Both the position numbers and the translations under genes were made by a program. The notes beneath the pieces are model-generated. The model did not search any database and was not told where the DNA came from. It worked only from the letters and a program-made list of their open reading frames with translations. This document shows positions 15,400 to 63,488 of a DNA stretch of 64,000 nucleotides, in pieces. The stretch's first letter is position 1, and each line of letters begins with the position of its first letter. Source of the DNA: Panopea generosa (lineage: Eukaryota > Mollusca > Bivalvia > Adapedonta > Hiatellidae); contig CM055900.1 in NCBI GenBank assembly GCA_029582155.1, forward strand, positions 41,585,236-41,649,235, read 5' to 3'.

Positions 15400-18300
15400 C
15401 TATGTATCTATAATCCTCACTCACCCCTCCATGTATTTCTACTATGTCTGTACATTGTATAACGTTATCGTGTTTACTGATGTTCCTCACTCACCTCTCC
15501 ATGTGTTAACTACTAGGTCTGTACATTGTATAACAATGTCTGTACATTGTATAACGTAATCGTGTTTACTGATGTTCCTCACTCACCTCTCCATGTGTTA
15601 ACTACTATGTCTGTACATTGTATAACAATGTCTGTACATTGTATAACGTTATCGTGTTTACTGATGTTCCTCACTCACCCTTCCATGTGGTGACTACTAT
15701 GTCTGTACATTGTATAACAATGTCTGTACATTGTATAACGTTATCATGTTTACTGATGTTCCTCACTCACCTCTCCATGTGTTAACTACTAGGTCTGTAC
15801 ATTGTATAACAATGTCTGTACATTGTATAACGTTATCGTGTTTACTGATGTTCCTCACTCACCTCTCCATGTGTTAACTACTATGTCTGTACATTGTATA
15901 ACGTTTTCGTGTTTACTGATGTTCCTCACTCACCTCTCCATGTGTTAACTACTAGGTCTGTACATTGTATAACGTTTTCGTGTTTACTGATGTTCCTCAC
16001 TGACCTCTCCATGTGTTAACTACTATGTCTGTACATTGTATAACAATGTCTGTACATTGTATAACGTTATCGTGTTTACTGATGTTCCTCACTCACCTCT
16101 CCATGTGTTAACTACTATGTCTGTACATTGTATAACGTTATTGTGTTTACTGATGTTCCTCACTCACCCCTCCATGTGTTAACTACTAGGTCTGTACATT
16201 GTATAACAATGTCTGTACATTGTATAACGTTATCGTGTTTACTGATGTTCCTCACTCACCTCTCCATGTGTTAACTACTAGGTCTGTACATTGTATAACG
16301 TTTTCGTGTTTACTGATGTTCCTCACTGACCACTACATGCGTTAACTACTATGTCTGTACATTGTATAACGTTTTCGTGTTTACTGATGTTCCTCACTGA
16401 CCACTACATGCGTTAACTACTATGTCTGTACATTGTATAACAATGTCTGTACATTGTATAACGTTATCGTGTTTACTGATGTTCCTCACTCACCTCTCCA
16501 TGTGTTAACTACTATGTCTGTACATTGTATAACGTTATTGTGTTTACTGATGTTCCTCACTCACCCCTCCATGTGTTAACTACTATGTCTGTACATTGTA
16601 TATCGTTATTCTGTTTACTGGTGTTACTTACTGACCCTTCCATGTGTTAACTACTATGTCTGTACATTGTATAACGTTTTCGTGTTTACTGATGTTCCTC
16701 ACTCACCTCTCCATGTGTTAACTACTAGGTCTGTACATTGTATAACGTTTTCGTGTTTACTGATGTTCCTCACTGACCTCTCCATGTGTTAACTACTATG
16801 TCTGTACATTGTATAACAATGTCTGTACATTGTATAACGTTATCGTGTTTACTGATGTTCCTCACTCACCTCTCCATGTGTTAACTACTATGTCTGTACA
16901 TTGTATAACGTTATTGTGTTTACTGATGTTCCTCACTCACCCCTCCATGTGTTAACTACTAGGTCTGTACATTGTATAACAATGTCTGTACATTGTATAA
17001 CGTTATCGTGTTTACTGATGTTCCTCACTCACCTCTCCATGTGTTAACTACTAGGTCTGTACATTGTATAACGTTTTCGTGTTTACTGATGTTCCTCACT
17101 GACCACTACATGCGTTAACTACTATGTCTGTACATTGTATAACGTTTTCGTGTTTACTGATGTTCCTCACTGACCACTACATGCGTTAACTACTATGTCT
17201 GTACATTGTATAACAATGTCTGTACATTGTATAACGTTATCGTGTTTACTGATGTTCCTCACTCACCTCTCCATGTGTTAACTACTATGTCTGTACATTG
17301 TATAACGTTATTGTGTTTACTGATGTTCCTCACTCACCCCTCCATGTGTTAACTACTATGTCTGTACATTGTATATCGTTATTCTGTTTACTGGTGTTAC
17401 TTACTGACCCTTCCATGTGTTAACTACTATGTCTGTACATTGTATAACGTTTTTGTGTTTACTGATGTTCCTTACTGACCCCTACATGTGTTAACTACTA
17501 TGTCTGTACATTGTATAACGTTTTTGTGTTTACTGATGTTCCTTACTGACCTCTACATGTGTTAACTACTATGTCTGTACATTGTATAATGTTCTTGTGT
17601 TTACTGATGTTCCTCACTGACCCCTACATGTGTTAACTACTATGTCTGTACATTGTATAACGTTTTTGTGTTTACTGATGTTCCTCACTCACCTCTCCAT
17701 GTGTTAACTACTATGTCTGTACATTGTATAACGTTATTGTGTTTACTGATGTTCCTCACTCACCCCTCCATGTGTTAACGACTATGTCTGTACATTGTAT
17801 ATCGTTATTCTGTTTACTGGTGTTACTTACTGACCCTTCCATGTGTTAACTACTATGTCTGTACATTGTATAACGTTTTTGTGTTTACTGATGTTCCTTA
17901 CTGACCCCTACATGTGTTAACTACTATGTCTGTACATTGTATAACGTTTTTGTGTTTACTGATGTTCCTTACTGACCCCTACATGTGTTAACTACTATGT
18001 CTGTACATTGTATAACGTGATTGTGATTGCTGATGTTCCTCACTCACCTCTCCTGGTGTTATCTACTATGTCTGTACATTGTATAATGTTCTTGTGTTTA
18101 CTGATGTTCCTCACTCACCCCTCCATGTGTTAACTACTATGTCTGTACATTGTATAACGTTTTTGTGTTTACTGATGTTCCTTACTGACCCTTCCATGTG
18201 TTAACTACTATGTCTGTACATTGTATAATGTTCTTGTGTTTACTGATGTTCCTTACTGACCCCTACATGTGTTAACGACTATGTCTGTACATTGTATAAC

Positions 18301-18650
18301 GTTTTTGTGTTTACTGATGTTCCTTACTGACCCCTACATGTGTTAACGACTATGTCTGTACATTGTATAACGTTTTTGTGTTTACTGATGTTCCTTACTG
18401 ACCCCTACATGTGTTAACTACTATGTCTGTACATTGTATAACGTTTTTGTGTTTACTGATGTTCCTTACTGACCCCTACATGTGTTAACTACTATGTCTG
18501 TACATTGTATAACGTTTTTGTGTTTACTGATGTTCCTTACTGACCCCTACATGCGTTAACTACTATGTCTGTACATTGTATAACGTGATTGTGATTGCTG
18601 ATGTTCCTCACTCACCTCTCCTGGTGTTATCTACTATGTCTGTACAGTAT
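15400..18650 (+). repeat. 71-bp satellite array with 92-bp variants and a higher-order repeat
   Basis: The base unit is 71 bases (CGTTTTTGTGTTTACTGATG ... TGTCTGTACATTGTATAA), about 43 units. Some units in the left half carry an extra 21-base duplication of CAATGTCTGTACATTGTATA, giving 92-base units. Left-side units read CTCACCTCTCCATGTG and right-side units CTGACCCCTACATGTG, so variants are sorted along the array. The block near 15880-16652 is repeated with an offset of 773 bases at 16653-17425, without visible difference in the parts compared. Confidence 0.95.
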
Positions 18651-18659
18651 ATAGAGGCT

Positions 18660-40768: not shown

Positions 40769-41932
40769 ATGACGACACAATGGTCTCTGTTACCAGGGGA
40801 CGCTGTGGTGCACATATTTACCTACCTCACCGCCCCTGACCGCTACCATGCATCACTGGTATGCAAATCCTGGTACGAGGCATTTCGGCATCCAAAACTT
40901 TGGCAGACATACACGTTTTGGTTTTTCTTACCATCTCACGAAAACGCTCTCATTGGCGTTAAACATTTCGGAAAATACATGAAAAGGATTACAATCGGTG
41001 TTAATCAGATGCTTGAAGAGAATCGGCAAAATGCTTGCGCATTGTTGGACAGTTTTACAAAAATAGATAGAAGAAAATTGATATCCTTAACAATTATTTT
41101 CACTGGCGAAAATCCACTATTTTATTCAGGGCAAGAGTTTTTGAATACTCTGAGTATTTTCTTTTCTGCACCGCCTGACAGTATAACACAACCCTTGCCA
41201 TCACTACAGCATGTAGACTTAAGTGGACTTGCCGTTCCATATGATGACCATGTTATTGACCTTTTGTCTCTTAACAATAAAGATCTGAAATACCTGGATC
41301 TTCAAAATAAGGTTATAGTATGTAAAGTGACATCATTTTGTATTTTACGACTTGTACAACGGTGCAGACGTCTGAAGGACCTGCGTGTATATCACTGCAG
41401 CATGTCCGACGACATACTGAACGCCATTGCAGAGAACAATCAGGATCCTTTAGACCACCTGTCTATAATGTGCAGACGAGACGAAAAGTATGGCGGCGAT
41501 TTAACAACAGAGTCTTGGAAACGCGTTACAACATTAATACCCACACTTAGAGTGACCTTGGGCTTTGACCATACATGCCCTTTTAATTTGATACCCTTGA
41601 TCATGAAAGCAGATATTCCAGTGAGGACTTTAAAACTGCAAGTATTCGCCATGTGTCATGATGAGGTGAATATAGCCGCAACACATTATAACCAAACACT
41701 CAAAAAACTGGTGTTGCATACAAGAAATTCTCTGATCCTTGAAGAAGCAATACTCAATGTAGCTAAGAACTGTTCTCTCCTCCGGTCATTGCTGGTTTAC
41801 TGTGTGATCAGACAAGAAACAATTGAAGAAATATTTCGTCTGCACCCAGACATGAAAGAAAGGGGCACCTACATATTGAAATCTGAAGTAGAACCTGAGC
41901 CATGGGTAGTTGGTGTGGAAGAGGGCGATTGA
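40769..41932 (+). CDS. F-box protein, FBXO39-like
   Basis: A 387-residue protein, all in one exon. Residues 7-46 form an F-box (LPGDAVVHIFTYLTAPDRYH, VCKSWYEAF, PKLW), the part that binds Skp1 in SCF ubiquitin ligases, so it should be a substrate receptor. The rest has leucine-rich-repeat-like segments (LPSLQHVDLSGLAV, LKYLDL, LKDLRVYHCSMSDDILNAI, LRSLLVYCVIRQETIEEIF). GVKHFGKYMKRITI and MSDDILNAIAEN resemble VKKFGRYLEHLEV and ISDELLENLCEN of vertebrate FBXO39 as I recall them. FBXO33 is the next closest, and the length fits this family (about 440). The ATG lies 6 bases after an acceptor (exon from 40763), so at least one upstream non-coding exon is expected. The stop TGA is at 41930. The substrate is unknown. 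The gene is intact, with no odd residue in the F-box. Confidence 0.88.
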   Translation: MTTQWSLLPGDAVVHIFTYLTAPDRYHASLVCKSWYEAFRHPKLWQTYTFWFFLPSHENALIGVKHFGKYMKRITIGVNQMLEENRQNACALLDSFTKIDRRKLISLTIIFTGENPLFYSGQEFLNTLSIFFSAPPDSITQPLPSLQHVDLSGLAVPYDDHVIDLLSLNNKDLKYLDLQNKVIVCKVTSFCILRLVQRCRRLKDLRVYHCSMSDDILNAIAENNQDPLDHLSIMCRRDEKYGGDLTTESWKRVTTLIPTLRVTLGFDHTCPFNLIPLIMKADIPVRTLKLQVFAMCHDEVNIAATHYNQTLKKLVLHTRNSLILEEAILNVAKNCSLLRSLLVYCVIRQETIEEIFRLHPDMKERGTYILKSEVEPEPWVVGVEEGD

Positions 41933-49403: not shown

Positions 49404-49785
49404 TTAGCTCATTTCAACACCATCATTTTCCATTTTTGTCACTTGAACATCTATTTTCTTATTATCAATAAGTTCCTCACAGATATTACTGTTATTCTTA
49501 CTATGCCCCACAGCGCCATTAAGGTTTAATTTATCACAATTATTACTTATATCCGTACTCTGTATACTGTCGCACGCCACTCTGTCTGCAGACAATGATT
49601 CTTTCCCACAATCCTCTGACTTGTGTCTATAATTAGAATTTCCACACATTTGGAACTCCTGTCTCCATACCCTTGCAACTTCATCATTGGGACTCTGGCT
49701 GTCTGGTTTTCTACCATCATCTTCTCCAAGGACAAGCATACCAACAATGGCTGCTGCTTGTTCTGCCAGCTGTTTCGACTTCTCC
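49404..49785 (-). CDS. DUS2: DUS2 last exon: dsRBD helix 2 and C-terminal tail
   Basis: The acceptor GATCGTTACAG lies at 49796-49786. The first base completes Trp (W-EKSKQLAEQAAAIVGMLVLG), the KSK..AE.AA helix of the dsRBD. About 100 further residues form a tail rich in N, S, D and E with no known domain. The stop is at 49406-49404. The frame stays open upstream to 49853, but the acceptor, the phase and the dsRBD alignment all support the start at 49785. Confidence 0.95.
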
Positions 49786-52700
49786 CTGTAACGATCACCA
49801 CACATGTATTTCAGGTTCTTCACTATTTTGCCTGCTAATCTAAATACTAACATTAAACATTCAAAATTCTACTTGGTATTTAGTTTGTAAATTTCTTTTT
49901 ATAGAAGCGTGACGAAATAATTAAGAAATATATTTTCCCATCATTTCTACTATTGTCCAATACAAATTATGAGGAAATTAACTGATAAAGAACCAAAGAA
50001 TGTAGACCAGGATCAGACAGCAGCCAACTTGGACTACAAAGTTAACCACTGTTACATTTGTAATCATTATCTCAGTCGGTAGAGCAGGAGACATCTAGTC
50101 TTGGAGTTACGGGTTCAGATTCCAGGGGCTGGGCAACTATAAATACTACCGGTAACTGTCTTTCAGATGGGACCTTAAACTGTGGGCCTGTGTGATAGCA
50201 CTATACACTTAGCACGCTAAAGAACCAAAAGAAACTTACAATAGGTTTCTATTCTGTATCCTGCACTCTCCCCCACAAACCTTAAATGACTAACACTCTT
50301 TCCATATGGGAAATCGGTGCCAATGTAACATAGGCTTATATACAACAATACATTTGTAACACTGATGTAAACAACAGTACAAAGCAAGATCCCAAGGTGA
50401 TTATATTACACAACAGCACAACAGCATAGAAGGATAGGAAACTTGCATCTCTTCTAAATATTGATAAAAAAGCATACGAGATATAGTAATTTGGCCAACT
50501 AATTTTCAGACGTCACAGGAAACAGATTTTTTATACATAAAATGTAAGTTGTATGTAACATTAGTTTTGTGGAGCATTTCATTGTACAAAGAAAAATTTT
50601 GATTGGTATAGCTGAGATGAATGGAAGTTAATATAACTGAAAACGAGATTTCGCAAGGTATTGCGTGAATACGTGAGCATTCATAAAATCTCAACCAGTT
50701 TCTTTTCCTTCTGTATTTAAGTCCTTGATAAAATACAGGTAAGAAGGAAGTTTACCAGATAGAGGCTGTGTACTTTTTGTTGTCAAGTTCCATCACACAT
50801 TTATAACAGCGGTCTTCCTTTCTCTCCATCTGTAAGAAAGGAATTCATGTTTATTCATTGCACTGTATGATTATTTGTTCATACATATCTGGTTGAGACA
50901 GCAGATGTAATCACTGACACATTACAACATTTTGTAGCAGACATACAGTATGAGCCGACACTTAGCGACCTCTCCTAGTAGTATCATCATTAAAATATTG
51001 AGCATCAAGAGACAAAGCTAACTAAATATTATAACTCAGTAGATCCAACACACAATTATTCACGAGGCAGACGGCAGTCCACCACTGTGATGCAGTACAA
51101 CATTCACGAGGCAGACAGCAGTCCACCTCTGTGATGCAGTACAACATTCATGAGGCAGATGGCAGTCCACCACTGTGATGCAGTACTACAGTCATGACGC
51201 AGAAGGCAGTCCACCACTGTGATACAGTATAACATTCATGAGGCAGATGGCAGTCCACCACTGTGATGCAGTACAACATTCACAAGGCAGACAGCATTCC
51301 ACCACTGTGATGCAGTACAACATTCATGAGGCAGACGTCAGTCCACCACTGTCAGCCAGTACAACATTCACTAAACAGACGGCAGTCCACCACTGTGATA
51401 CAGTACAACATTCATGAGGCAAATGGCAGTCCACCACTGTGATGCAGTACAACATTCATGAGGCAGACGGCAGTCCACCACTGTGATGCAGTACAACATT
51501 CACCAGTACTAACTTGTAACACTGAATTTCAATAATATAATCTTCTGTCTTTCTTTCTGGATCTTTTAAACATCAATCAGAAACAGTGCTACTACCAACT
51601 ATGAACCAGAGACAATGTTTACCAATGTGATTGTGTTTACTTTCAGTGTGATCCTGGTGACTGGGTTGTTTATAAATGGTAGAGAGAGCAGAGAGCTCCA
51701 TGTTAATGGTTAAATATTGGGGAAAAATTCCTTTATACTTACCGTGGCGTAAACTGGCTTTTCCAGCTTGTTTCTTTTTGTCCATTCATACAGTTTCAGT
51801 TTAGGACTTACCGACACAGGATAGTCTTTCCTAGAAAATATAACAATTATAAATTACTTGTAATAAAATTATCAGTCTCTGATTAACTTATATAAGCAAA
51901 TTTGCAATTATAAACTACTTAGCTGTAAAGTAGTGTAGTGAATTGAGTGTAAGTCGCTCACACTAGTGTGTGCAAGTTCAATCCCCAGCTTGACCAATTG
52001 ACCTCCCACAAAACAACACTCAGTACTGGGTTTTACGGAGGGAGCAGACTCAAGTTGTGCTGAATCTCTTATTCAAATGGTCATGGTCCAGGTCATCTTA
52101 ACCTTGTTTGATGAGCAATCATTAACATGCTACAATTAAGAACATTACCCACTTCACTGGTAGACACACAGCAATTACCCACATCACTGCTAGACAAACA
52201 GCAATGATCCACATCACTGGTAGACACACAGCAATGACCTACATCACTGGTAGACACACAGCAATTACTCACATCACTGGTAGACAAACAGCAATGATTC
52301 ACATCACTGGTAGACACACATTACTGGTAGACTCACAGCAATGACCTATATCAATGGTAGACACACATCACTGGTAGACACACAGCAATGACCTACATCA
52401 CTGGTAGACACACAGCAATTACTCACATCACTGGTAGACAAACAGCAATGATCCACATCACTGGTAGACGTACATTACTGGTAGACACACAGCAATGACC
52501 TACATCACTGGTAGACACACAGCAATTACTCACATCACTGGTAGACAAACAACAACGATCCACATCACTGGTAGACATACATTACTGGTAGACACATGGC
52601 AATGACCTACATCAATGGTAGACACACATCACTGGTAGACACACAGCAATGACCCACATCTCTGGTAGACACACAGCAGCTACCCACATCACTGGTAGAC

Positions 52701-55700
52701 AAAAAGCAATGATCGACATCATTGGTAGACACACATCAGTGTTAGACACACAGCAATGACCTACATCACTGGTAGACACACAGCAATGACCCACATCACT
52801 GGTAGACATATAGCAATGTCCCACATCACTGGTAGACACACATCAAATATCCACATCATTAGTAGACACACATCACTGGTAGACACACAGCAATGTCCCA
52901 TATCACTGGTAGACACACAGCAATGATCCACATCACTGGTAGATACACATTTCTGGTAGGCACACATCACTGGTAGAAACAGCAAATACCCACATGACTG
53001 GTAGACACACATCACAAGCAGACACACAGCAATGACCTACATCACCAGTAGACACACAGCAATGACCCATATCACTGGTAGACATACATCAATGATCCAC
53101 ATCACTGGTAGTCACAAAGCACTGGTAGACTTACAGCAATGACCCACATCACTGGTAGACACACATTAATTACCCACATCACCGGTAGACAAACAGCAAT
53201 GATCCACATCATTGGTAGACACACATCAGTGGTAGACACACAGCAATGACCTACATCACTGGTAGACACACAGCAATGACCCACATCACCGGAAGACATA
53301 TAGCAATGACCCACATCATTGGTAGACAAACATCAAATATCCACATCACTAGTAGACACACATCACTGGTAGACACACAGCAATGTCCCACATCACTGGT
53401 AGACACACAGCAATGATCCACATCACTGGTAGACACACATTTGTGGTAGACACACATCACTGGTAGACACAGCAAATACCCACATCACTGGAAGACACAC
53501 ATCAAAGGCAGACACACAGCAATGACCTACATCACCAGTAGACACACAGCAATGACCCATATCACTGGTAGACATACATCAATGATCCACATCACTGGTA
53601 GTCACAAAGCACTGATAGACACACAGCAATGACCTACATCACTGTTAGACACACTTCACTGGTAGACACACAGTGATGATCCACATTATTGGTAGACACA
53701 CAGCAATGACCCACATCACTGTTAGACACACAGCAATGATCCACATCACTGGTAGACACACAGCAATGACCCACATCACTGGTAGACACACATCACTGGT
53801 AGACACACAGCAATGATCCACATCACTGGTAGACACACATCACTGGTAGATACACATCACTGGTAGACACACATCACTGGTAGACACACAGCAATGATCC
53901 ACATCACTGTTAGATACACATCACTGGTAGATACACATCACTGGTAGACGTACATCACTGGTAAACACACAGCAATGATCCACATCACTGGTAGACACAC
54001 ATCACTGGTAGATACACATCACTGGTAGACACACAGCAATGACCCACATCACAGGTAGACACTTATCACTGGTAGACACACAGCAATGATCCACATCACT
54101 GGTAGACACACAGCAATGACCCACATCACAGGTAGACACTTATCACTGGTAGACACACAGCAATGATCTACAACACTGGTAGACACACAGCAAATACCAA
54201 CATCACTGGTAAACACACAGCAATGATCCATATCATTGGTAGACAGACATCATTGATAGACACACAACAATGACCCACATCACTGGTAGACACACAACAC
54301 AGCAATGACCCAAATTACTGGTAAACACACAGCAATGACCAACATCACTGGTAGACACACATCACTTGTAGACATACATCACTGATAGACACACAGCAAT
54401 GACCCACATTACTGGTAGACACACAGCAATGACTCATGTAACTGGTACACAAATCACTGGTAGACACACAGCAATGACCACCATCACTAGTAGACACACA
54501 TCACTGGTAAACACACAGCAATGACCTACATCTCTGGTAGACACACATCACTGGTAGGCATATATCACTGGTAGACACACAGCAATGATCCACATCACTG
54601 GTAGACACACATCAATGATCCACATCACTGGTAGATACACATCAATGATCCACATCACTGGTAGACACACATCACTGGTAGACACACAGCAATGATCCAC
54701 ATCACTGGTAGACACACATCAATGATCCACATCACTGGTAGACACACATCACTGGTAGATACACATCACTGGTAGACACACATCACTGGTAGACACACAT
54801 CACTGGTAGACACACAGCAATGATCCACATCACTGGTAAACACACAGCAATGATCCACATCACTGGTAGACACACATCACTGGTAGATACACATCACTGG
54901 TAGACACACAGCAATGACCCACATCACAGGTAGACACTTATCACTGGTAGACACACAGCAATGATCCACATCACTGGTAGACACACAGGAATGACCCACA
55001 TTACAGGTAGACACTTATCACTGGTAGACACACAGCAATGATCCACATCACTGGTAGACACACAGCAAATACCAACATCACTGGTAAACACACAGCAATG
55101 ATCCATATCTTTGGTAGACAGACATCATTGGTAGACACACAACACAGCAATGACCCAAATCACTGGTAAACACACAGCAATGACCAACATCACTGATAGA
55201 CACACGTCACTTGTAAACATACATCACTGATAGACACACAGCAATGACCCACATTACTGGTAGACACACAGCAATGACTCATGTAACTGGTACACAAATC
55301 ACTGGTAGACGCACAGCAATGACCCACATTACTGGTAGACACACATCATTGGTAGACATACAGCAATGACCCACATCACTAGTAGACACACATCACTGGT
55401 AAACACACAGCAATGACCAACATCTCTGGTAGACACACATCACTGGTAGGCATATATCACTGGTAGACACACATCACTGGTAGACATATATCACTGGTAG
55501 ACACACAGCAACAACCAACTTCACTGGTAGACACACAGCAATGACCAACATCACTGGTAGACAGTTACACACATCAATGGTAGACACATCTTCGGTAGAC
55601 ATACATCACTGGTAGACACACATCACTGGTAGACACACAGCAATGATCCACATCACAGGTAGACACACAGTAATGATCCACATCACTGGTAGACACACAT

Positions 55701-58700
55701 CACTGGTAGACACACATCACTGGTAGACACACATCACTGTTAGACACACATCACTGGTAGACACACAGCAATGACCCTCATCACTGGTACACACATCACT
55801 GGTAAACACACGGCAATGACCCAAATCTCTGATAGACATACATCACTGGTAGACTCACAGCAATGACCAACATCACTGGTAAACACACGGCAATGACTCA
55901 GATCTCTGATAGACATACATCACTGGTAGACTCACAGCAATGACCAACATCACTGGTAAACACACGGCAATGACCCAGATCTCTGATAGACATACATCAC
56001 TGGTAGACACACAGCAATGACCCTCATCACTGGTACACACATCACTGGTAAACACACGGCAATGACCCAGATCTCTGATAGACATACATCACTGGTAGAC
56101 ACACTTCACTGGTAGACACACATCACTGGTAGACTCACAGCAATGACCAACATCACTGGTAGACACACTTCACTGGTAGACACACATCACTGGTAGACTC
56201 ACAGCAATGACCAACATTAATGGTAAACCCACATCACTGGTAAACACACAGCAATAACCCACATCTCTGGCAGACATACATCACTGGTAAATACACAGCA
56301 ATGACCCACATCTCTGGAAGACACACATCACTGGTAAACACACAGCAATGACCAACATTACTGGTAGACACACATCACTGGTAAACACACAGCAATGACC
56401 AACATCTCTGGTAGTCATACAACACTGGTAGACACACTTCACTGGTAGACACACATCACTGGTAGACTCACATCACTGGTAAACACACAGCAATGACCCA
56501 AATCTCTGGCAGACATACATCACTGGTAAATACACAGCAATGACCCAAATCTCTGGCAGACATACATCACTGGTAAATACACAGCAATGACCCAAATCTC
56601 TGGCAGACATACATCACTGGTAAATACACAGCAATGACCCACATCTCTGGTAGACACACATCACTGGTAAATACACAGCAATGACCCACATCTCTGGTAG
56701 ACACACATCACTGGTAAATACACAGCAATGACCCACATCTCTGGAAGACACACATCACTGGTAAATACACAGCAATGACCCACATCTCTGGTAGACACAC
56801 ATCACTAGTAGACATACATCACTGGTAGTCACACATCACTGGTAGACACACAGCAATGACCAACATCACTGGACACACACAGCAATGTTCATACAACAAT
56901 CTTTACATCTCATTTCTCTGAACGTAGAACTAATTCTATCATATCATTATATAGTATCCAACATGATAAAGCAGGGTAAGATAAAGTTTTGTTTTATCAG
57001 AAGGGAAGGTTTATCTTGCAGCAACACAAAAACTGATGATATCATAGTTTTGCATAGTGTTAAACCCTGTTTGTGAAATTTTGATAAAACTGTTAATTAT
57101 GTCAATAGATATAAACTGAATTACTAAAAACTAATAACCGAGTCAAACAGTTTCCATAACAAGAGTTGTCAGAAGACCAACAAAGCCGCGCCTTGGTGTC
57201 TTAGTCCAAAAAGGGCCATAACTGTGCCAAAATGCAATCCAGAGTTATGGTTCTTGTCTCTGTGTTGATGATTGATGATGGTGAACACACATGCAAAGAT
57301 TCATTCACATCCACTGAGTGGTTGCATAGATATCTTAAACTTAAACGCAAAAGTTTAACCTGGGTGTCTACAGCCAACGCCGACGCCGCCAGGCTCATGA
57401 CAATAGCTCCCCTTGGACTTTGTCCCGGCGAGCTAAAAACTATGTTTTGTTTTAATTTCATCAATCAAATAAAGAACTAGTTTCAGACACATTCACTGCA
57501 GATGTACACACACATGTGTTTGTTTGCTGGTCAAATATCAGTTATTACTTTTAAATAAAAAATAAATAAATAAATAAATAAATAAAACATGCAGTTAATA
57601 ACAAGATAATTAAATTCCATACTAGTGTCTGATATTTTAAAAATTTCAGGTCTGATTAAAAAAAAATTTGAACACTCGACAAAGTTTGTGCTTATATTTA
57701 GTTCAACCTCTCCTGATAAACAGACTATCAGGCACCGTCATGGTATCACTATAAGATACTAATCTCCACGGAGGATGGACGGGCGCCGCGATTACTATAT
57801 GCTACCCCAAACATTTGGGTGTGTGGTGGTGGGCATAAAAATACAATTTTGTTTCAGATAACAAATGGTTATATAAAAATAATTCTATTCACAAGAATCT
57901 GCAAAATAAAACATTGGTTAATGAAGCTTACATGACACTGTTTTATCAGGTTTTTAACTTGTTCAAAATTACTAATCTAGGTCACATGGCTATTTTTGTT
58001 TCCTGACAGTTTAACAGATCAATGAACCTACAATACATAACCTCTTTTTTATTTTAATTATCTCAAAAGTCTTTAAAAATGACAGATGTGAGGACAAGGG
58101 TATCGGTGGAATTGATGGATGCACCGTGAACAAGTGCTTGATTGAGCATTGTCAGATTGTATTTCCAAAGGGAAGATAACTCTTGTGAAGATATGCTTCG
58201 GACAAGCAAACATAACCAAAAATAAAGTAGAAAAGGGAAAATGTTTATACCATTATTCAAGATAAAGTTATGTTTGATCTGTTTTGTACTTCCACACATT
58301 GCCCTCTCTCCATGTTCCAAGACATGTTTCAGTCCCTTACAAATACATATCTGAAGATATCCTCATGACAAGCAAATACAACCACAAATAAAGTACAAAA
58401 GGGGAGATTATTCTCTCATTACAGACAGAGTTATTGTTTTCTGACTGCACTTCCACACATTGCCTATTTACCCTGTTCCAAGTCCTGTTAGATACTCTTC
58501 CATAATTCTGAACCAGACAACCAAAACTAACCATAAAATAAAATGAAGTACAAAAAGGGAGATAATTCTATCATATTTCAAGATAGAGTTATGGTTCTTT
58601 TGCTCTGCACTTCCACACAATGATTCTATCCATGTTCTAACTGTTGCAGAGAAGAAAATCAGAAAGAAAACATACAGTGAAAAGCGCTATTGCTTCATAA

Positions 58701-60911
58701 ACAAAATAAGCATTATCAATATTAATATTCTGTCACAATAACAACAACTTCATACATGTACCATGCTACTTAAGATATAAAAGTAATAACACAAGTTCAA
58801 GTTAAATTTTAGGAGAGCTTGAGCTTAAAAGAAAAATGTCAACAAATGGGTGGATAACTGAAATAGAGGTACATGTATGTCATTTCTTTTGTATTTGTTT
58901 GTCACAGAGGTCACACATTTGTTTTCATGAGAAATGTTGCTCAAGTAATTTTTCAACTGTTTTCCTATTGTCCTAATAAAATTCAAACTCTTAATGAGTC
59001 ACACAAGATGCGCCTAGTCAGTATGAATGGACAGGCAGGCAATGAATGCTCTTTTATAACAGTCATTTTTTTTTCAAAAAGTGATTGGAAACTTACTTGA
59101 TAGGTATTTCTATCAAATATCTTAAAACAGGTATATGAAAACTTACTGAATGGAGTTTAACGCCATTTTCAACACATTTCAGGTTATATATGGCATATCC
59201 AGTTTTACTGGTGGAGGAAGACCTCAGACTGTGTCAGACTAAGTAGAACCACCTTCCTTCCACAAGTAAACTTACTGATTAAAACTGGTAATATGTTTCT
59301 AGTAAACTTTTCAAAATAGGTGTATGAAAACTTACTTAATAAATCTGATAGGCATTTCTATCAAAATTTTGCCGTCTTCCGTTTTTCTCTTTTTGATGCC
59401 CAAATATTTGTCCACCTGCTGTTGCTTCTTTTTTCTATTACATTGTACTTCCTTCATGTAATCTGCCATTCCCCAGATTTCACTGAAATAAAGGTATCCA
59501 GCTGATGGTTGAAATCAATCAATCCCTTCATAAAAACGAGATTAAATACCAATAAAATACATTGTTTGGCAAAAATGGTGTGTTCACATTCGTTATAATA
59601 TAGACACAAATGGTGCGATCACAATCATTATAATAGAGATACAAATGTTGCGTTTACATGTCATATAAAATAGACACAAATGGTGCGTTCATATTTATTA
59701 TTAGATAGACACAAATGGTGCGTTCACATGTCATATAAGATAGACAAATATGGTGTGTTCACATGTCATATAAGATAGGTACAAATGGTGTGTTCACATA
59801 TCATATAAGATAGACACATATGGTGTGTTCACATGTCATATAAGATAGATACAAATGATGTGTTCATATGTCATATAAGATAGACACATATGGTGTGTTC
59901 ACATGTCATGTAAGATAGACACATATGGTGTGTTTACATGTCACATAGGATAGAAACAAATGGTGTGTTCACATGTCATATAAGATAGACACATATGGTG
60001 TTCACAGTCATATAAAATAAGACACAAATGATGTGTTCATATGTCATATAAGATAGACACATATGGTGTGTTTACATGTCATATAAGATAGATACAAATG
60101 GTGTGTTCACATGTCATATAAGATAGATACATATGGTGTGTTCACATGTCATATAAAATAGACACAAATGGTACATTCATATTTATTATTAGATAGACAC
60201 AAATGGTGTGTTCACATGTCATTTAAGATAGACACACATGGTGTGTTCACATGTCATATAACACGGATACAAATGGTGTGTTCACATGTCATATAAGGTA
60301 GTCACAAATGTTGTGTTCACATTGCATATAAGATAGACACAAATGTTGTGTTCACATTGCATATAAGGTAGACACAAATGGTGCGTTCACATTTATTATA
60401 AAATAGACACAAATGGTGTTTTCACATTTTATATAAGATAGACAAAAATGTTGTTTTCACATGTCGTGTAAGATAGACCAAATGGTGCATTCACATGTCA
60501 TATAAGATATACACATATAGTGTGTTCACATGGTGTGTGGCACAAATGGTGTGTAACACTCATATAGAATAGCAACAAATGGTATGTACATATTATATAT
60601 AAAATAGGTACAAATGGTGTTTTCATTCATATAGAAAAGGCACAATGGTGTGTTCACATGTTTAACCAAGTGAGCTGAATGGTAATGGATTCCATTTCCA
60701 ACAACTATAATAATATGATGTGTAAACTTGTTCCAGATGAAAGGGAGGTAAGGAGCTCCCGGCCTGACATCTATTATTGCCATCTATTAGTTCCCCTGAA
60801 GAAAGAATAATATATATTCCGAAAGCGCTCGGGTTTTTTAAAATAATTTTAAAGAATTCAGTTTTGTTTGGGTGTATTAATTAATTTTTAATAATTAATT
60901 TATTATCTCTC

Positions 60912-60946
<35 letters not shown>

Positions 60947-63488
60947 TTCATGTGTGTAAAATTGTCCACCCTGTCCAGATATGTTGCTTGTAATTCCATA
61001 GTATATAAGTTATGGTCGACACCAAATTTATTGGTTTGGCAGAGGCCTTGATATTGTATCTATAGTTTGCATTGTAGCTAGGCGCACTCGCCGTAGTCTG
61101 GTCTGTACATTTATGTCTTGGTTAATCACAAATAATTATCTCCATATATATCGGTATACTTGTTTAACAAAATCTTCATATAAACACTTTAAATACAGTT
61201 TCTGCATTTCTTTAACTTTGAAATGCATATTTAAACATACCAAATTTCCTCAATGTGATATTATTTTCATTTATTTCATATTACTTTAATTTTTGTTTCA
61301 TTTCATGTCTTTAAGTTCAAAACATGACAATAATCATTAGACCAAGCAAGCTTTACAAAATGTAGTTCCAATGACCTATAGGTCATAGTATGGTCTATTA
61401 TTGGTGTTTTATTGAATACTATTATTTTTGGACCTTTCCAATTTCTCTTTGTAGATGCACACTAAAACATACCAAATTTCTTCAAAACACTTAGAGTCCT
61501 GTGTGTCAAGACCCTCCTGTTGGTCCATATCTGCATGCATCATCATCAATATACAGTACTTGGTATTTGTGAACCCATTCTCCATCTCTATAGCCTGCAA
61601 AAATATTATTGGAATGATACAGCACTTGGTATTTGTGAACCCATTCTCAATCTCTATAGCCTAAAAAAATATTATTGGAATGATACAGCACTTGGTAGTT
61701 GTGAATCCATTGTTCGTTGCTATTGCCTAAAAAAATATATCTGTATTTCTGAACTTGTTGCCTGTCTCTGTAGCCTGCAAAAACATTATTGGAATGATAA
61801 TGCATTTGGTATTTGTGGACCCATTGTCTGTCTCTATAGCCAGCAAAAATATAATTGGAACGATAAAGCATTTGGTATTTGTGAACCCATTGTCTGTCTC
61901 TGTAGCCTACAAAAGTATAATTGGAATGATAAAGCATTTGGTATTTGTGAACCCATTGTCTGTCTCTGTAGCCTACAAAAGTATTACTGGAATGATAAAG
62001 CATTTGGTATTTGTGAACTCGTTGCCTGTCTCTATAGTCTGCAAAAATACTATTGGAACGATAAAGCATTTGGTATTTGTGAACCCATTGTTTGTCTCTG
62101 TAGCCTGCAAAAATAGAATTAAATGAAACATTGTTTGTTATTACATTGAAAAATTGTCCTGCTACATGGATGGAGAACAGGGTAGGCCCTGTATGGGGTT
62201 ATACAGATGTCTAGTTCATTACATTTCAGTTACTGACTTTTCCTCATAAGTTCTCAACCATGTTTTATAAAACCCAAAAGTTTTTGCACCTTTTGATATA
62301 TTTTTTTATCCGGCTTATTTCTCAAACAAATGAAATTGTTACATAATTTAAAACATAGAGATTAACTGTTGATTTCAGTGAAACATCATGTAAATTTAGT
62401 TTGTAATAATTGTGAAAAAAGCTCAAAGTTTGTATAAACCACTCATGTTTCTACTTCCCGTGCAGCACCAGTACTGAGTGTTATTTTTTCAGAGGCATCC
62501 GGGAGAGCTGGTGATCAAACCCACAACCTCTGATGTGAGTGTCCAATTCCTCTCACTACGTTTTAATTTTATCATGTGAATATTGAAGTGGTATGGATAG
62601 AAATGTCAAAATTCGTATGTTCCATACCATCTCAGTGTTCACTCCATGTTTAAAATAATATGGTATTTTACAGAAACCAACACGTTTCTATCTCATGATC
62701 TGCAATTTAATATTTCCCTATTTTAACAAGGAAATTTCTAATCTATTTGCTTAGAAATTTCTATAATTCATCAAAAGCAAAGATTAATATTTTTTTAATG
62801 AGGTTTACCAACCCATTTTACATTATATTTGACATGGCCAGTTTAAATGGTGGAGAAAGACTTTAGAATGAATCTGAGTAGAACCACAGTCCTTCCCCAA
62901 ATAACTGGCAGACTTTGTCACATAAAGATTTTGGAGTGAGCAGGACTAGAACCTACAACCTTAGTGTTGAACGGTAAGTAATCTGAGGAAGACCTCAGAA
63001 TGAATCTGAGAAGAACCATCGTCCTTCCGCAAGTAACAGGCAACTTTCTCACATGAAGGTTTTTGAAACAAGGAGACTCGCACCTACAACCGTAGTGTTG
63101 AGAGGTAAGTGATATTGAGACAACACCTTAGTACACTCGACCGCGCAGGACCCCTAAATTAAGATTTACCACTGACTCATCATTCCATGTGAATTATAAA
63201 TTCAAGACCATCAAAAAATAAACAAAAAATTGTACCTAAATAAAGTTGGGTGTTTTTAACAATATCTTTGTGTGTGCATTAATTAAATTATTTAATTGTT
63301 TTTCAACGTATGTACTTACAATCTTCAAATATTGTCTAACAACATCGAAGAGTGGAAGTTTTCCTTCTTTTCTAAATATAGATGTGTTCCACTCAGCTTC
63401 CCTAGCGATCATAACTGATGATGCTCCTGATGCCAGCCGGAACTTCTCTATGTCGCCATAGCAACGTATATGTGCTTTAGAACCACCG
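49404..63488 (-). CDS. DUS2: tRNA-dihydrouridine(20) synthase, DUS2, 3' six exons (partial)
   Basis: DUS2 uses FMN and NAD(P)H to reduce uridine 20 in the tRNA D-loop. Six exons are read on the minus strand: 63488-63320, 61594-61473, 59482-59336, 51830-51743, 50829-50756 and 49785-49404. All have GT/AG borders, and phases agree at every junction (0, 2, 2, 0, 2). They give 327 residues. Residues 1-57 close the FMN barrel (NGGS; DIEKFRLASGASSVMIARE, AEWNTSIF). About 58-145 is the helical domain (GFTNTKYC, FEEICEIWGMADY). About 148-228 is the dsRBD that marks animal DUS2 (SPKLKLYEWTKRNKLEKPVY; ASIWEKSKQLAEQAAAIV). A polar C-tail follows. Human DUS2, from memory, aligns throughout (TNTKYC, PVYET, DKSKKLAEQAAAIV). 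The N-terminal barrel half, with the catalytic cysteine, lies beyond 64000. Introns hold several tandem arrays. Confidence 0.95.
50062..50330 (+). mobile_element. tRNA-derived SINE (family D) in a DUS2 intron
   Basis: Head ATCTCAGTCGGTAGAGCAGG (box A) and ACGGGTTCAGATTCC (box B). The body contains CTTTCAGATGGGACCTTAAA, GGGCCTGTGTGATAGCACTA and ACGCTAAAGAACC, a core word order found in several invertebrate SINE families. Target duplication not found. Confidence 0.8.
50756..50829 (-). CDS. DUS2: DUS2 exon: dsRBD strands
   Basis: The acceptor is TTCCTTTCTTACAG and the donor is GTAAAC. It encodes MERKEDRCYKCVMELDNKKY TASI-W, the second and third strands of the dsRBD (CVMELDNKKY corresponds to human IVTVAEQKY). 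Confidence 0.95.
51061..51505 (+). repeat. 44-bp minisatellite in a DUS2 intron
   Basis: About ten units of CACGAGGCAGACGGCAGTCC plus ACCACTGTGATGCAGTACAACATT with small changes. It lies between the exons at 50829 and 51743. Confidence 0.95.
51743..51830 (-). CDS. DUS2: DUS2 exon: dsRBD helix 1
   Basis: The acceptor is ATATTTTCTAG and the donor is GTAAGTATAA. It encodes K-DYPVSVSPKLKLYEWTKRN and KLEKPVYAT, the first helix and first strand of a dsRBD (PK..L.EW......P.Y). It is separated from the upstream exon by a 7.5-kb intron containing the 52110-56885 satellite. Confidence 0.95.
51920..52075 (+). mobile_element. SINE fragment (family C) in a DUS2 intron
   Basis: GTGCAAGTTCAATCCCCAGC (box B region) is followed by ACACTCAGTACTGGGTTTTA and GGAGCAGACTCAAG, the same order as in the SINE at 31808-32006. 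The head is decayed. Confidence 0.7.
52110..56885. repeat. 4.8-kb satellite array in a DUS2 intron
   Basis: The array is built from a 17-base word (CACTGGTAGACACACAT) and a 30-base word (CACTGGTAGACACACAGC plus AATGACCCACAT) mixed irregularly, well over 150 units. Larger blocks are repeated: about 54000-54425 recurs near 54875-55300 (offset about 875), and about 52610-53030 recurs near 53100-53510 (offset about 490). Minus-strand frames give CVSTSDVGHC-type repeats that are not proteins. Confidence 0.95.
57130..57440 (-). repeat. Dispersed repeat, reverse relative of 3875-4565
   Basis: ACAAGAGTTGTCAGAAGACC at 57160, GGGCCATAACTGTGCCAAAA and CATGCAAAGATTCATTCACA are the reverse complements of words at 4555, 4210 and 4110. 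Non-coding. Confidence 0.8.
57441..58125. other. Intron stretch with an (AAAT)n run
   Basis: AAATAAATAAATAAATAAAT lies at about 57556-57586. The rest is AT-rich DUS2 intron with no recognised feature. Confidence 0.5.
58126..58650 (-). repeat. Three diverged units of about 175 bp in a DUS2 intron
   Basis: AAAGTA.AAAAGGGGAGAT, CAAGATA.AGTTATG, TGCACTTCCACACATTGCC and CCATGTTCCAAG recur near 58215-58325, 58385-58490 and 58540-58640. Confidence 0.75.
58651..59149. other. DUS2 intron, no recognised feature
   Basis: AT-rich intronic sequence. Confidence 0.5.
59150..59275 (-). mobile_element. SINE fragment (family A relative)
   Basis: GGTGGAGGAAGACCTCAGAC, AGTAGAACCACCTTCCTTCC and ACAAGTAAACTTACTG match the order at 62830-62920 and 62985-63050. 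No tRNA head. Confidence 0.6.
59336..59482 (-). CDS. DUS2: DUS2 exon: linker before the dsRBD
   Basis: The acceptor is TTATTTCAG and the donor is GTAAGTTTTC. The first base completes Cys (C-EIWGMADYMKEV). It is lysine/glutamine-rich in the middle (NRKKKQQQVDKYLGIKKRK) and ends GKILIEMPIRFI-K, corresponding to human GVIKMAVKFDRR. The lysine-rich linker is likely part of the tRNA-binding surface, by inference. Confidence 0.93.
59572..60660 (+). repeat. 36-bp tandem array in a DUS2 intron
   Basis: About 29 units of AGATAGACACAAATGGTGTG plus TTCACATGTCATATAA, with CATATGG/CAAATGG and GTGCG/GTGTG variants. Confidence 0.95.
60661..61472. other. DUS2 intron with a (TA)n run
   Basis: A (TA)n run lies near 60916-60944. 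The rest is AT-rich with no recognised feature. Confidence 0.55.
61473..61594 (-). CDS. DUS2: DUS2 exon: helical domain start
   Basis: The acceptor is ATATTTTTGCAG and the donor is TTTG/GTATGTTTTAG. It encodes AIEMENGFTNTKYCILMMMH and then DTQDSKCFEEI, ending with two bases of a Cys codon. TNTKYC is a DUS2 landmark. Its acceptor and first 16 or so codons are the parent of the 66-bp minisatellite directly upstream (61595-62121). Confidence 0.95.
61555..62121 (-). repeat. 66-bp minisatellite made from a DUS2 splice acceptor and exon start
   Basis: About nine units, the last of which (in gene direction) is the true exon border at 61595/61594. Each unit on the minus strand reads polypyrimidine-like TATTTTTGCAG or TACTTTTGTAG, then GCTACAGAGACAGACAATGG and GTTCACAAATACCAAATG. 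Eight of nine keep the AG. A period of 66 is a multiple of three. The extra units carry no donor and have TAG in frame at the next acceptor, so using a decoy acceptor would add a stop to the message. Confidence 0.93.
62122..62444. other. DUS2 intron, no recognised feature
   Basis: AT-rich intronic sequence. Confidence 0.5.
62445..62575 (-). mobile_element. SINE fragment (family C)
   Basis: On the minus strand GAGGTTGTGGGTTTGATCAC (box B region) is followed by ATGCCTCTGAAAAAATAACA and CTCAGTACTGGTGCTGCAC, as in the copies at 31808 and 51920. Confidence 0.75.
62800..63155 (-). mobile_element. tRNA-derived SINE (family A relative) with a partly duplicated body
   Basis: Two similar stretches (about 62830-62985 and 62990-63120) each carry AGAATGAATCTGAG.AGAAC, GTCCTTCC.CAA.TAAC, TCACAT.AAG.TTTT and CCTACAACC.TAGTGTTGA. 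At the right end a tRNA-like head is seen on the minus strand (GGTCCTGCGCGGTCGAGTG; box B GGTGCGAGTCTCC). Confidence 0.7.
63320..63488 (-). CDS. DUS2: DUS2 exon: end of FMN-binding barrel
   Basis: The acceptor TTTTCTAG lies at 63489 and above, and the donor GTAAGT starts at 63319. The first base completes an Asn codon (N-GGSKAHIR). It encodes GDIEKFRLASGASSVM and IAREAEWNTSIFRKEGKLPL, matching the phosphate-binding end of the Dus barrel. Where human DUS2 has WNPSIF this protein has WNTSIF. It ends in phase 0 after YLKI. Confidence 0.95.

Follow-up and report, generated by a model that had tools for sequence, protein, structure and literature searches.

A mirage-type minisatellite of splice-acceptor copies precedes an exon of a DUS2-like gene in the bivalve Panopea generosa

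In a 64,000-nucleotide stretch of the Panopea generosa genome (assembly GCA_029582155.1, contig CM055900.1, positions 41,585,236 to 41,649,235; called here the window, in whose numbering positions are given), direct reading of the minus strand revealed nine acceptor-like units at 62104-61594, upstream of an exon of a gene that looks like DUS2. This array has the structure of a mirage, a type of minisatellite known from lancelets in which the repeat unit spans an intron/exon boundary, and most likely it is a by-product of the local duplication of DNA and for the most part harmless. With a probability of about three in four, we consider that it arose by near-neutral local tandem duplication and that the last acceptor, at 61594, is chosen mainly by exon definition.

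The host gene had been named DUS2 in a first-pass annotation of the window, and comparison with known structures bears this name out. When the exons 63488-63320 and 61594-61473 were joined, the encoded protein aligned without a gap to residues 209-300 of chain 6ezb_A, presumably human, in the Protein Data Bank (PDB; E=2.9e-23), and it is on such PDB matches that the assignment to DUS2, a tRNA-dihydrouridine(20) synthase, rests; a Pfam scan of the 97-residue joined query returned no family. The alignment to the DUS2 structures runs ungapped across the 63320/61594 junction, and 61594 is accordingly regarded as the productive acceptor. The joined protein gave three genome matches up to E=10, all of them at the DUS2 locus; as no second place was found at that threshold and the exons are conserved, a DUS2 pseudogene or paralogue was ruled out. 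Further exons were detected both upstream and downstream with a human DUS2 query, with which no exon was found for human residues ~299-356. Among the downstream matches, that at 50829-50755 is weak (E=3.7) and that at 49784-49710 sits within an open frame, 49868-49404.

The exon-side first bases of units 1 to 9 lie at 62104, 62038, 61972, 61906, 61840, 61774, 61726, 61660 and 61594, which corresponds to a spacing of 66 bp with a single 48-bp step from 61774 to 61726, and Tandem Repeats Finder reported a period of 66 over 61551-61738 and 61743-62115. NAGNAG tandem acceptors are neighbouring competing acceptors 3 nt apart, without a duplicated boundary segment; here, by contrast, successive units are 66 or 48 nt apart and each consists of the end of the intron with its pyrimidine tract and AG (about 21 bp), followed by about 45 bp of exon start. 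This anatomy agrees with the derivation from a splice acceptor proposed in the first-pass annotation, and direct reading upholds the ladder described there. AG is present in eight of the nine units, that is in seven of the eight upstream units (called here decoys), unit 5 reading CTG, and unit 9 alone runs on into the full DUS2 exon with its donor, for which reason it would be the productive one. The acceptor is an in-frame TAG in the units at 61972, 61906, 61726 and 61660, as had been stated. The description of the decoys as seven or eight near-identical sites needs correcting in both respects: exactly seven upstream sites have AG, and pairwise identity among units over 66 columns ranges from 55 to 97%. 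Units 3 and 4 are 97% alike, and unit 8, the decoy closest in sequence to the true exon, is 92% identical to unit 9. The array gave one match in the 1.47-Gb genome and the 66-nt unit nine, all at the DUS2 locus; as the search passes over very common words and scores just its top candidates, uniqueness holds within these limits. As the unit matched the DUS2 locus only in this search, an origin from a transposon or dispersed satellite was ruled out.

Minisatellites called mirages were described in the Adh3 gene and the globin genes BflGb6 and BflGb9 of lancelets (Branchiostoma; PMC3087553) and also in those for troponin C (TnC) and PGBD5 (PMC3902484). As described there, lancelet mirages are, like the DUS2 array, tandem units that span the intron/exon boundary, many with the splice dinucleotide, and that adjoin an authentic exon; both acceptor-side and donor-side cases are known, and units measure 10-160 bp, those of BflGb6 being 81-100% identical (PMC3087553). 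Judged by its sequence, the DUS2 array fits this structural definition: the unit spans the boundary together with its AG, the array adjoins one authentic exon whose encoded protein is intact, and the 66-bp unit falls within the 10-160 bp range. It differs in its mollusc host, its gene, a unit length that is a multiple of three and a greater divergence among units. In keeping with a mollusc host, three myosin heavy chain exon queries found their best PDB matches in 3i5f or 1dfk, which are squid and scallop myosins, and their kin: one scored 154.6 bits compared to 116.4 for Myosin-7, another 156.7 compared to 128.0, and the third only 113.9 compared to 111.8; in the first two the next-best entry was 3jbh, from an arthropod (127.6 and 133.0 bits). 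Haplotype length differences and undisturbed splicing are reported features of lancelet mirages, whereas the DUS2 array is known here from the sequence of one assembly: the globin and Adh3 mirages reportedly do not interfere with regular splicing (PMC3087553), nor does that of TnC (PMC3902484), and a model proposes mirages as a source of new introns (PMC3087553). The first-pass view that no such case had been described may hold for DUS2, for which no search by gene name was made, but the phenomenon itself is known from lancelets.

Related structures outside lancelets are also in print, although the term mirage is absent from the passages available. Human variable internal tandem repeats at the exon-intron boundaries of recently duplicated genes were associated with 27 intron modifications and with alternative transcripts (PMC2812944). 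They resemble the DUS2 array in being minisatellites at exon-intron boundaries (on average 30-bp units in 4 copies), but they belong to recently duplicated primate genes, were found via repeat variation between paralogues, and the outcomes reported for them are novel introns and alternative transcripts, as opposed to copies of a single acceptor stacked before an old exon (PMC2812944). In IFI6 (6-16), the repeat units of a minisatellite serve as multiple splice donors (Turri et al. 1995, as cited in PMC4526556); this minisatellite shares with the DUS2 array the tandem splice-site copies, but these are donors instead of acceptors, and their alternative use has been reported. A literature search covering titles and abstract openings, with most subscription journals outside its coverage, turned up no mollusc mirage among the papers listed, and no boundary minisatellite appears in the available passages of a mollusc hemocyanin paper (PMC7931591).

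The nine acceptors were scored with a matrix derived from 65 acceptors of the same genome, which had been inferred at conserved exons for Dus, CCT and kinesin proteins (five of 70 loci left out). Each training acceptor was the best AG near its match, which biases the set towards strong sites, and a few of those with low scores were probably placed wrongly. Unit 1 had the best acceptor of the nine (12.2, 72nd percentile of the 65), 510 nt upstream of the productive one, and unit 6 scored 10.1 (43rd percentile); units 2, 3, 4, 7 and 8 ranged from 5.7 to 8.1 (11th-25th percentile), with unit 8 at 6.7 (15th percentile), and unit 5, which lacks AG, scored 3.7. The acceptor of the preceding DUS2 exon, at 63488, scored only 1.5; a low matrix score therefore does not bar use. 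Matches to the yUnAy branch-point consensus lie at -24 and -42 in units 2-5 and at -20 and -15 in unit 1, and units 6 and 7 lack one within 50 nt.

Several of these observations weigh against a harmless array with a well-marked last acceptor. The true acceptor at 61594 scored 9.8 (38th percentile), weaker than unit 1 and about equal to unit 6, and units 8 and 9 have yUnAy only at -42, in unit 9 with an AG lying between. The acceptor sequence itself, as far as matrix and consensus can tell, does not favour 61594, and the splice choice at the array is one that we infer. Moreover, boundary repeats are not always silent, since the human ones reportedly give rise to alternative splicing (PMC2812944) and IFI6 units act as donors. 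It is on the other side of the exon that 61594 stands apart. The exon that it opens has a GTATGT donor scoring 8.2 (37th percentile of 60 inferred donors), whereas the best of the 18 GTs in the array reached 2.6, compared with 4.2 at the 5th percentile of these own-genome donors, and the apparent exons from decoy acceptors would measure 188-632 nt, compared to 122 nt for the true exon. As the acceptor sequence does not single out 61594 and only 61594 leads to the 122-nt exon with its donor, this acceptor is probably selected by exon definition.

We propose that slippage or unequal exchange could have duplicated the boundary segment locally, its intron end and exon start being copied repeatedly into the DUS2 intron. 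The last unit would be the productive one, the spliceosome would pick 61594 mainly by exon definition, mis-splicing to decoys would be minor, and the array would drift nearly neutrally. When units 6 and 7 were set aside, which left seven units of full length, 11 of the 21 intron columns and 15 of the 45 exon columns were variable (Fisher p=0.18), the latter distributed as 3, 7 and 5 of 15 over the codon positions; coding constraint on the decoys, tested in this way by codon position, was not found, eight units giving little power. With the same little power, no selective retention of AG was found: at the mismatch rate of the decoys themselves (0.13), 6.05 of the eight would be expected to keep it, seven do, and the probability of at least seven is 0.38.

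Boundary duplications also occur elsewhere in this genome. The 70 conserved-exon loci surveyed represent 10 of 10, 30 of 53 and 30 of 127 match rows of three sets, a fourth set of 82 rows being left out, and the rows sit on contigs numbered 1-19 of 39. Four loci were dropped as intronless or disturbed, and 58 acceptors and 60 donors, all inferred from sequence, were placed above score thresholds on 65 loci; the sample includes two near-copies of one locus (L060 and L061) and another DUS2 exon (L015). A local copy spanning the splice site was found at 3 of the 118 inferred boundaries. At a KIF13-like donor (L075, G000:C11:30826718-30826900, minus strand), the exon 3' end and donor (GATCTGCTTGATCTAAAAGG followed by GTTAGT) are repeated in a 43-bp unit whose matches span C11:30823309-30826736 (3.4 kb), about 80 copies by length, with 62 GTTAGT in the 4.7 kb examined; this mirage, on the donor side, greatly exceeds the DUS2 array in size. 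The other two lie within 3 kb on the minus strand of C16 (41727811-41730630) and were taken for one gene, which we assume to be DUS3L: a Dus donor (L014) has three tandem copies 28 bp apart, and a Dus acceptor (L016) an 80% copy 65 bp upstream. In the flanking DNA of the same loci, the same rule gave a local copy spanning 320 of 2600 tiles (12.3%; Fisher p=0.0004 compared to the boundaries), these tiles being not independent and possibly including exons. Under a looser rule, introns next to 9 of the 118 boundaries had a local copy, some of these being the same duplications. The difference between 3 of 118 boundaries and 320 of 2600 tiles suggests that mirages recur in this genome as rare instances, at splice sites, of a local tandem duplication that is otherwise common, and it may be that selection removes many boundary duplications.

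In the same survey, a CCT exon of about 47 residues (L054, G000:C5:34074088-34074592) was seen as two tandem copies 367 bp apart and 76% alike, apparently a duplicated last exon. Minisatellites placed by eye near a splice site but excluding it were seen in L043, 19 nt past a donor, in L062, 7 nt ahead of an exon, and in L084, about 50 nt past a donor.

The first-pass annotation had further proposed that copy number tunes DUS2 output. Upstream acceptors would then yield early-stop transcripts that are degraded, and array length would lower and tune the output. The seven decoys with AG (units 1-4 and 6-8) have acceptors between the 11th and 72nd percentile, an exon taken as constitutive gets by with the acceptor at 63488, and the human boundary repeats show that splicing can be altered by such structures (PMC2812944). 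Joining to units 1-7 would lead to a stop after 43, 21, 21, 59, 37, 15 and 21 codons, respectively, which leaves six usable stop-leading sites (units 1-4, 6 and 7), as unit 5 lacks AG. Unit 8 has a frame that is open into the true exon and would add exactly 22 residues (AIEIENGFTNTKCCIIPIIFLQ). The AGs, however, bear no sign of selective retention, lancelet mirages are reported to leave splicing undisturbed, and boundary duplications are rarer than those in flanking tiles. With AG retention close to drift, no coding constraint and boundary duplications recurring elsewhere, the sequence lends the tuning claim no support; tuning by copy number is possible, with nothing positive pointing to it, and we regard the competition it presupposes as unlikely. 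A bolder form of this idea, in which an array of variable length would control tRNA dihydrouridylation like a rheostat that is heritable and possibly somatic, each expansion diverting some DUS2 transcripts to stop-containing products in competition with the native, best-scoring acceptor 510 nt upstream, and in which the KIF13-like and DUS3L-like genes would carry further rheostats, appears more doubtful still.

Alternative use of the unit-8 TAG acceptor, giving a DUS2 isoform with these 22 residues, is suggested by the fact that unit 8 is the sole decoy with a frame open into the true exon and is 92% alike to unit 9, but its acceptor scores low, the insert would break the stretch that aligns ungapped to the DUS2 structures, and one open unit of eight is explicable without selection, which makes such an isoform improbable. 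An assembly in which the copy number was inflated or the array misjoined would have a precedent in lancelets, where the BflGb6 mirage seemed aberrantly assembled in the draft genome (PMC3087553). Here, repeated placement of the same reads would not give units that differ as these do (55-97% identity, one 48-bp step, one CTG), so that an artefact is very improbable, although the exact copy number may still be off. Finally, every unit carries an exon start, as mutually exclusive tandem exons would, but such exons have an acceptor and a donor in each copy, whereas no GT in the array scores within the range normal for donors; internal exon use of the units was ruled out on this ground, and mutually exclusive exons deserve hardly any credence. 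Near-neutral duplication of the boundary, with exon definition selecting 61594, remains the reading that we prefer.

The features of the locus are collected in Table 1. About 230 bp downstream of the DUS2 exon, its 3' end and donor recur as a partial copy, with 29 of 36 ungapped matches, whereas 19 control stretches of 3 kb gave no more than 22 (a 20th, in which the query itself lay, does not count). The donor nonamer of this copy is identical to the true one (8.2), and the copy is perhaps a degenerate second mirage.

Table 1. Coordinates of the DUS2-like exons, the array and the related copy in the window.
Feature	Position	Strand	Details
DUS2 upstream coding exon	63320..63488	-	GGSKAHIRCYGDIEKFRLASGASS...RQYLKI; acceptor TTTTCTAG before 63488; donor GTAAGT from 63319; from DUS2 structure alignment and genome match
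Intron	61595..63319	-	1725 nt by coordinates; decoy units at 3' end
Native intron 3' end	62105..62130	-	TGTTTCATTTAATTCTATTTTTGCAG; precedes unit 1; top acceptor score of nine
Eight decoy units	61595..62104	-	7 x 66 bp + 1 x 48 bp = 510 bp
Authentic DUS2 exon	61473..61594	-	AIEMENGFTNTKYCILMMMHADMDQQEGLDTQDSKCFEEI; 122 nt, phase 0 in; donor GTATGT from 61472
Partial copy of exon 3' end and donor	61216..61253	-	GAGGAAATTTG followed by GTATGTTT; 85% over 39 bp
Downstream DUS2 exon matches	49404..51844	-	51844-51740, 50829-50755, 49784-49710

Large minisatellites were also observed in DUS2 introns, at 51058-51502 (44 bp x 10), 52147-56887 (a 4.7-kb complex array) and 59573-60661 (35 bp x 31), and far downstream of the gene at 15444-18653 (71 bp x 31 in part); when ten DUS2 exons, each with 80-bp flanks, were used as queries, none matched the large minisatellites significantly. 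A 48-bp stretch before one DUS2 exon (66825-66778) has a 96% copy, without AG, in the preceding intron (67916-67869), the coordinates of both continuing past the window into L005. An intact 387-residue open frame on the plus strand at 40769-41932 has, by eye, the look of an F-box protein.

Taken together, these results make the DUS2 array a natural experiment on splice choice, of a kind already known from lancelets. Its productive acceptor is preceded by others, is outscored in the matrix and does not have the best branch-point match, and every mirage likewise offers a natural test of how the choice falls on one splice site among several near-copies. If mirages do recur in a mollusc, affecting a few percent of splice boundaries, then genomes with much local tandem duplication are likely to produce them as a general by-product.

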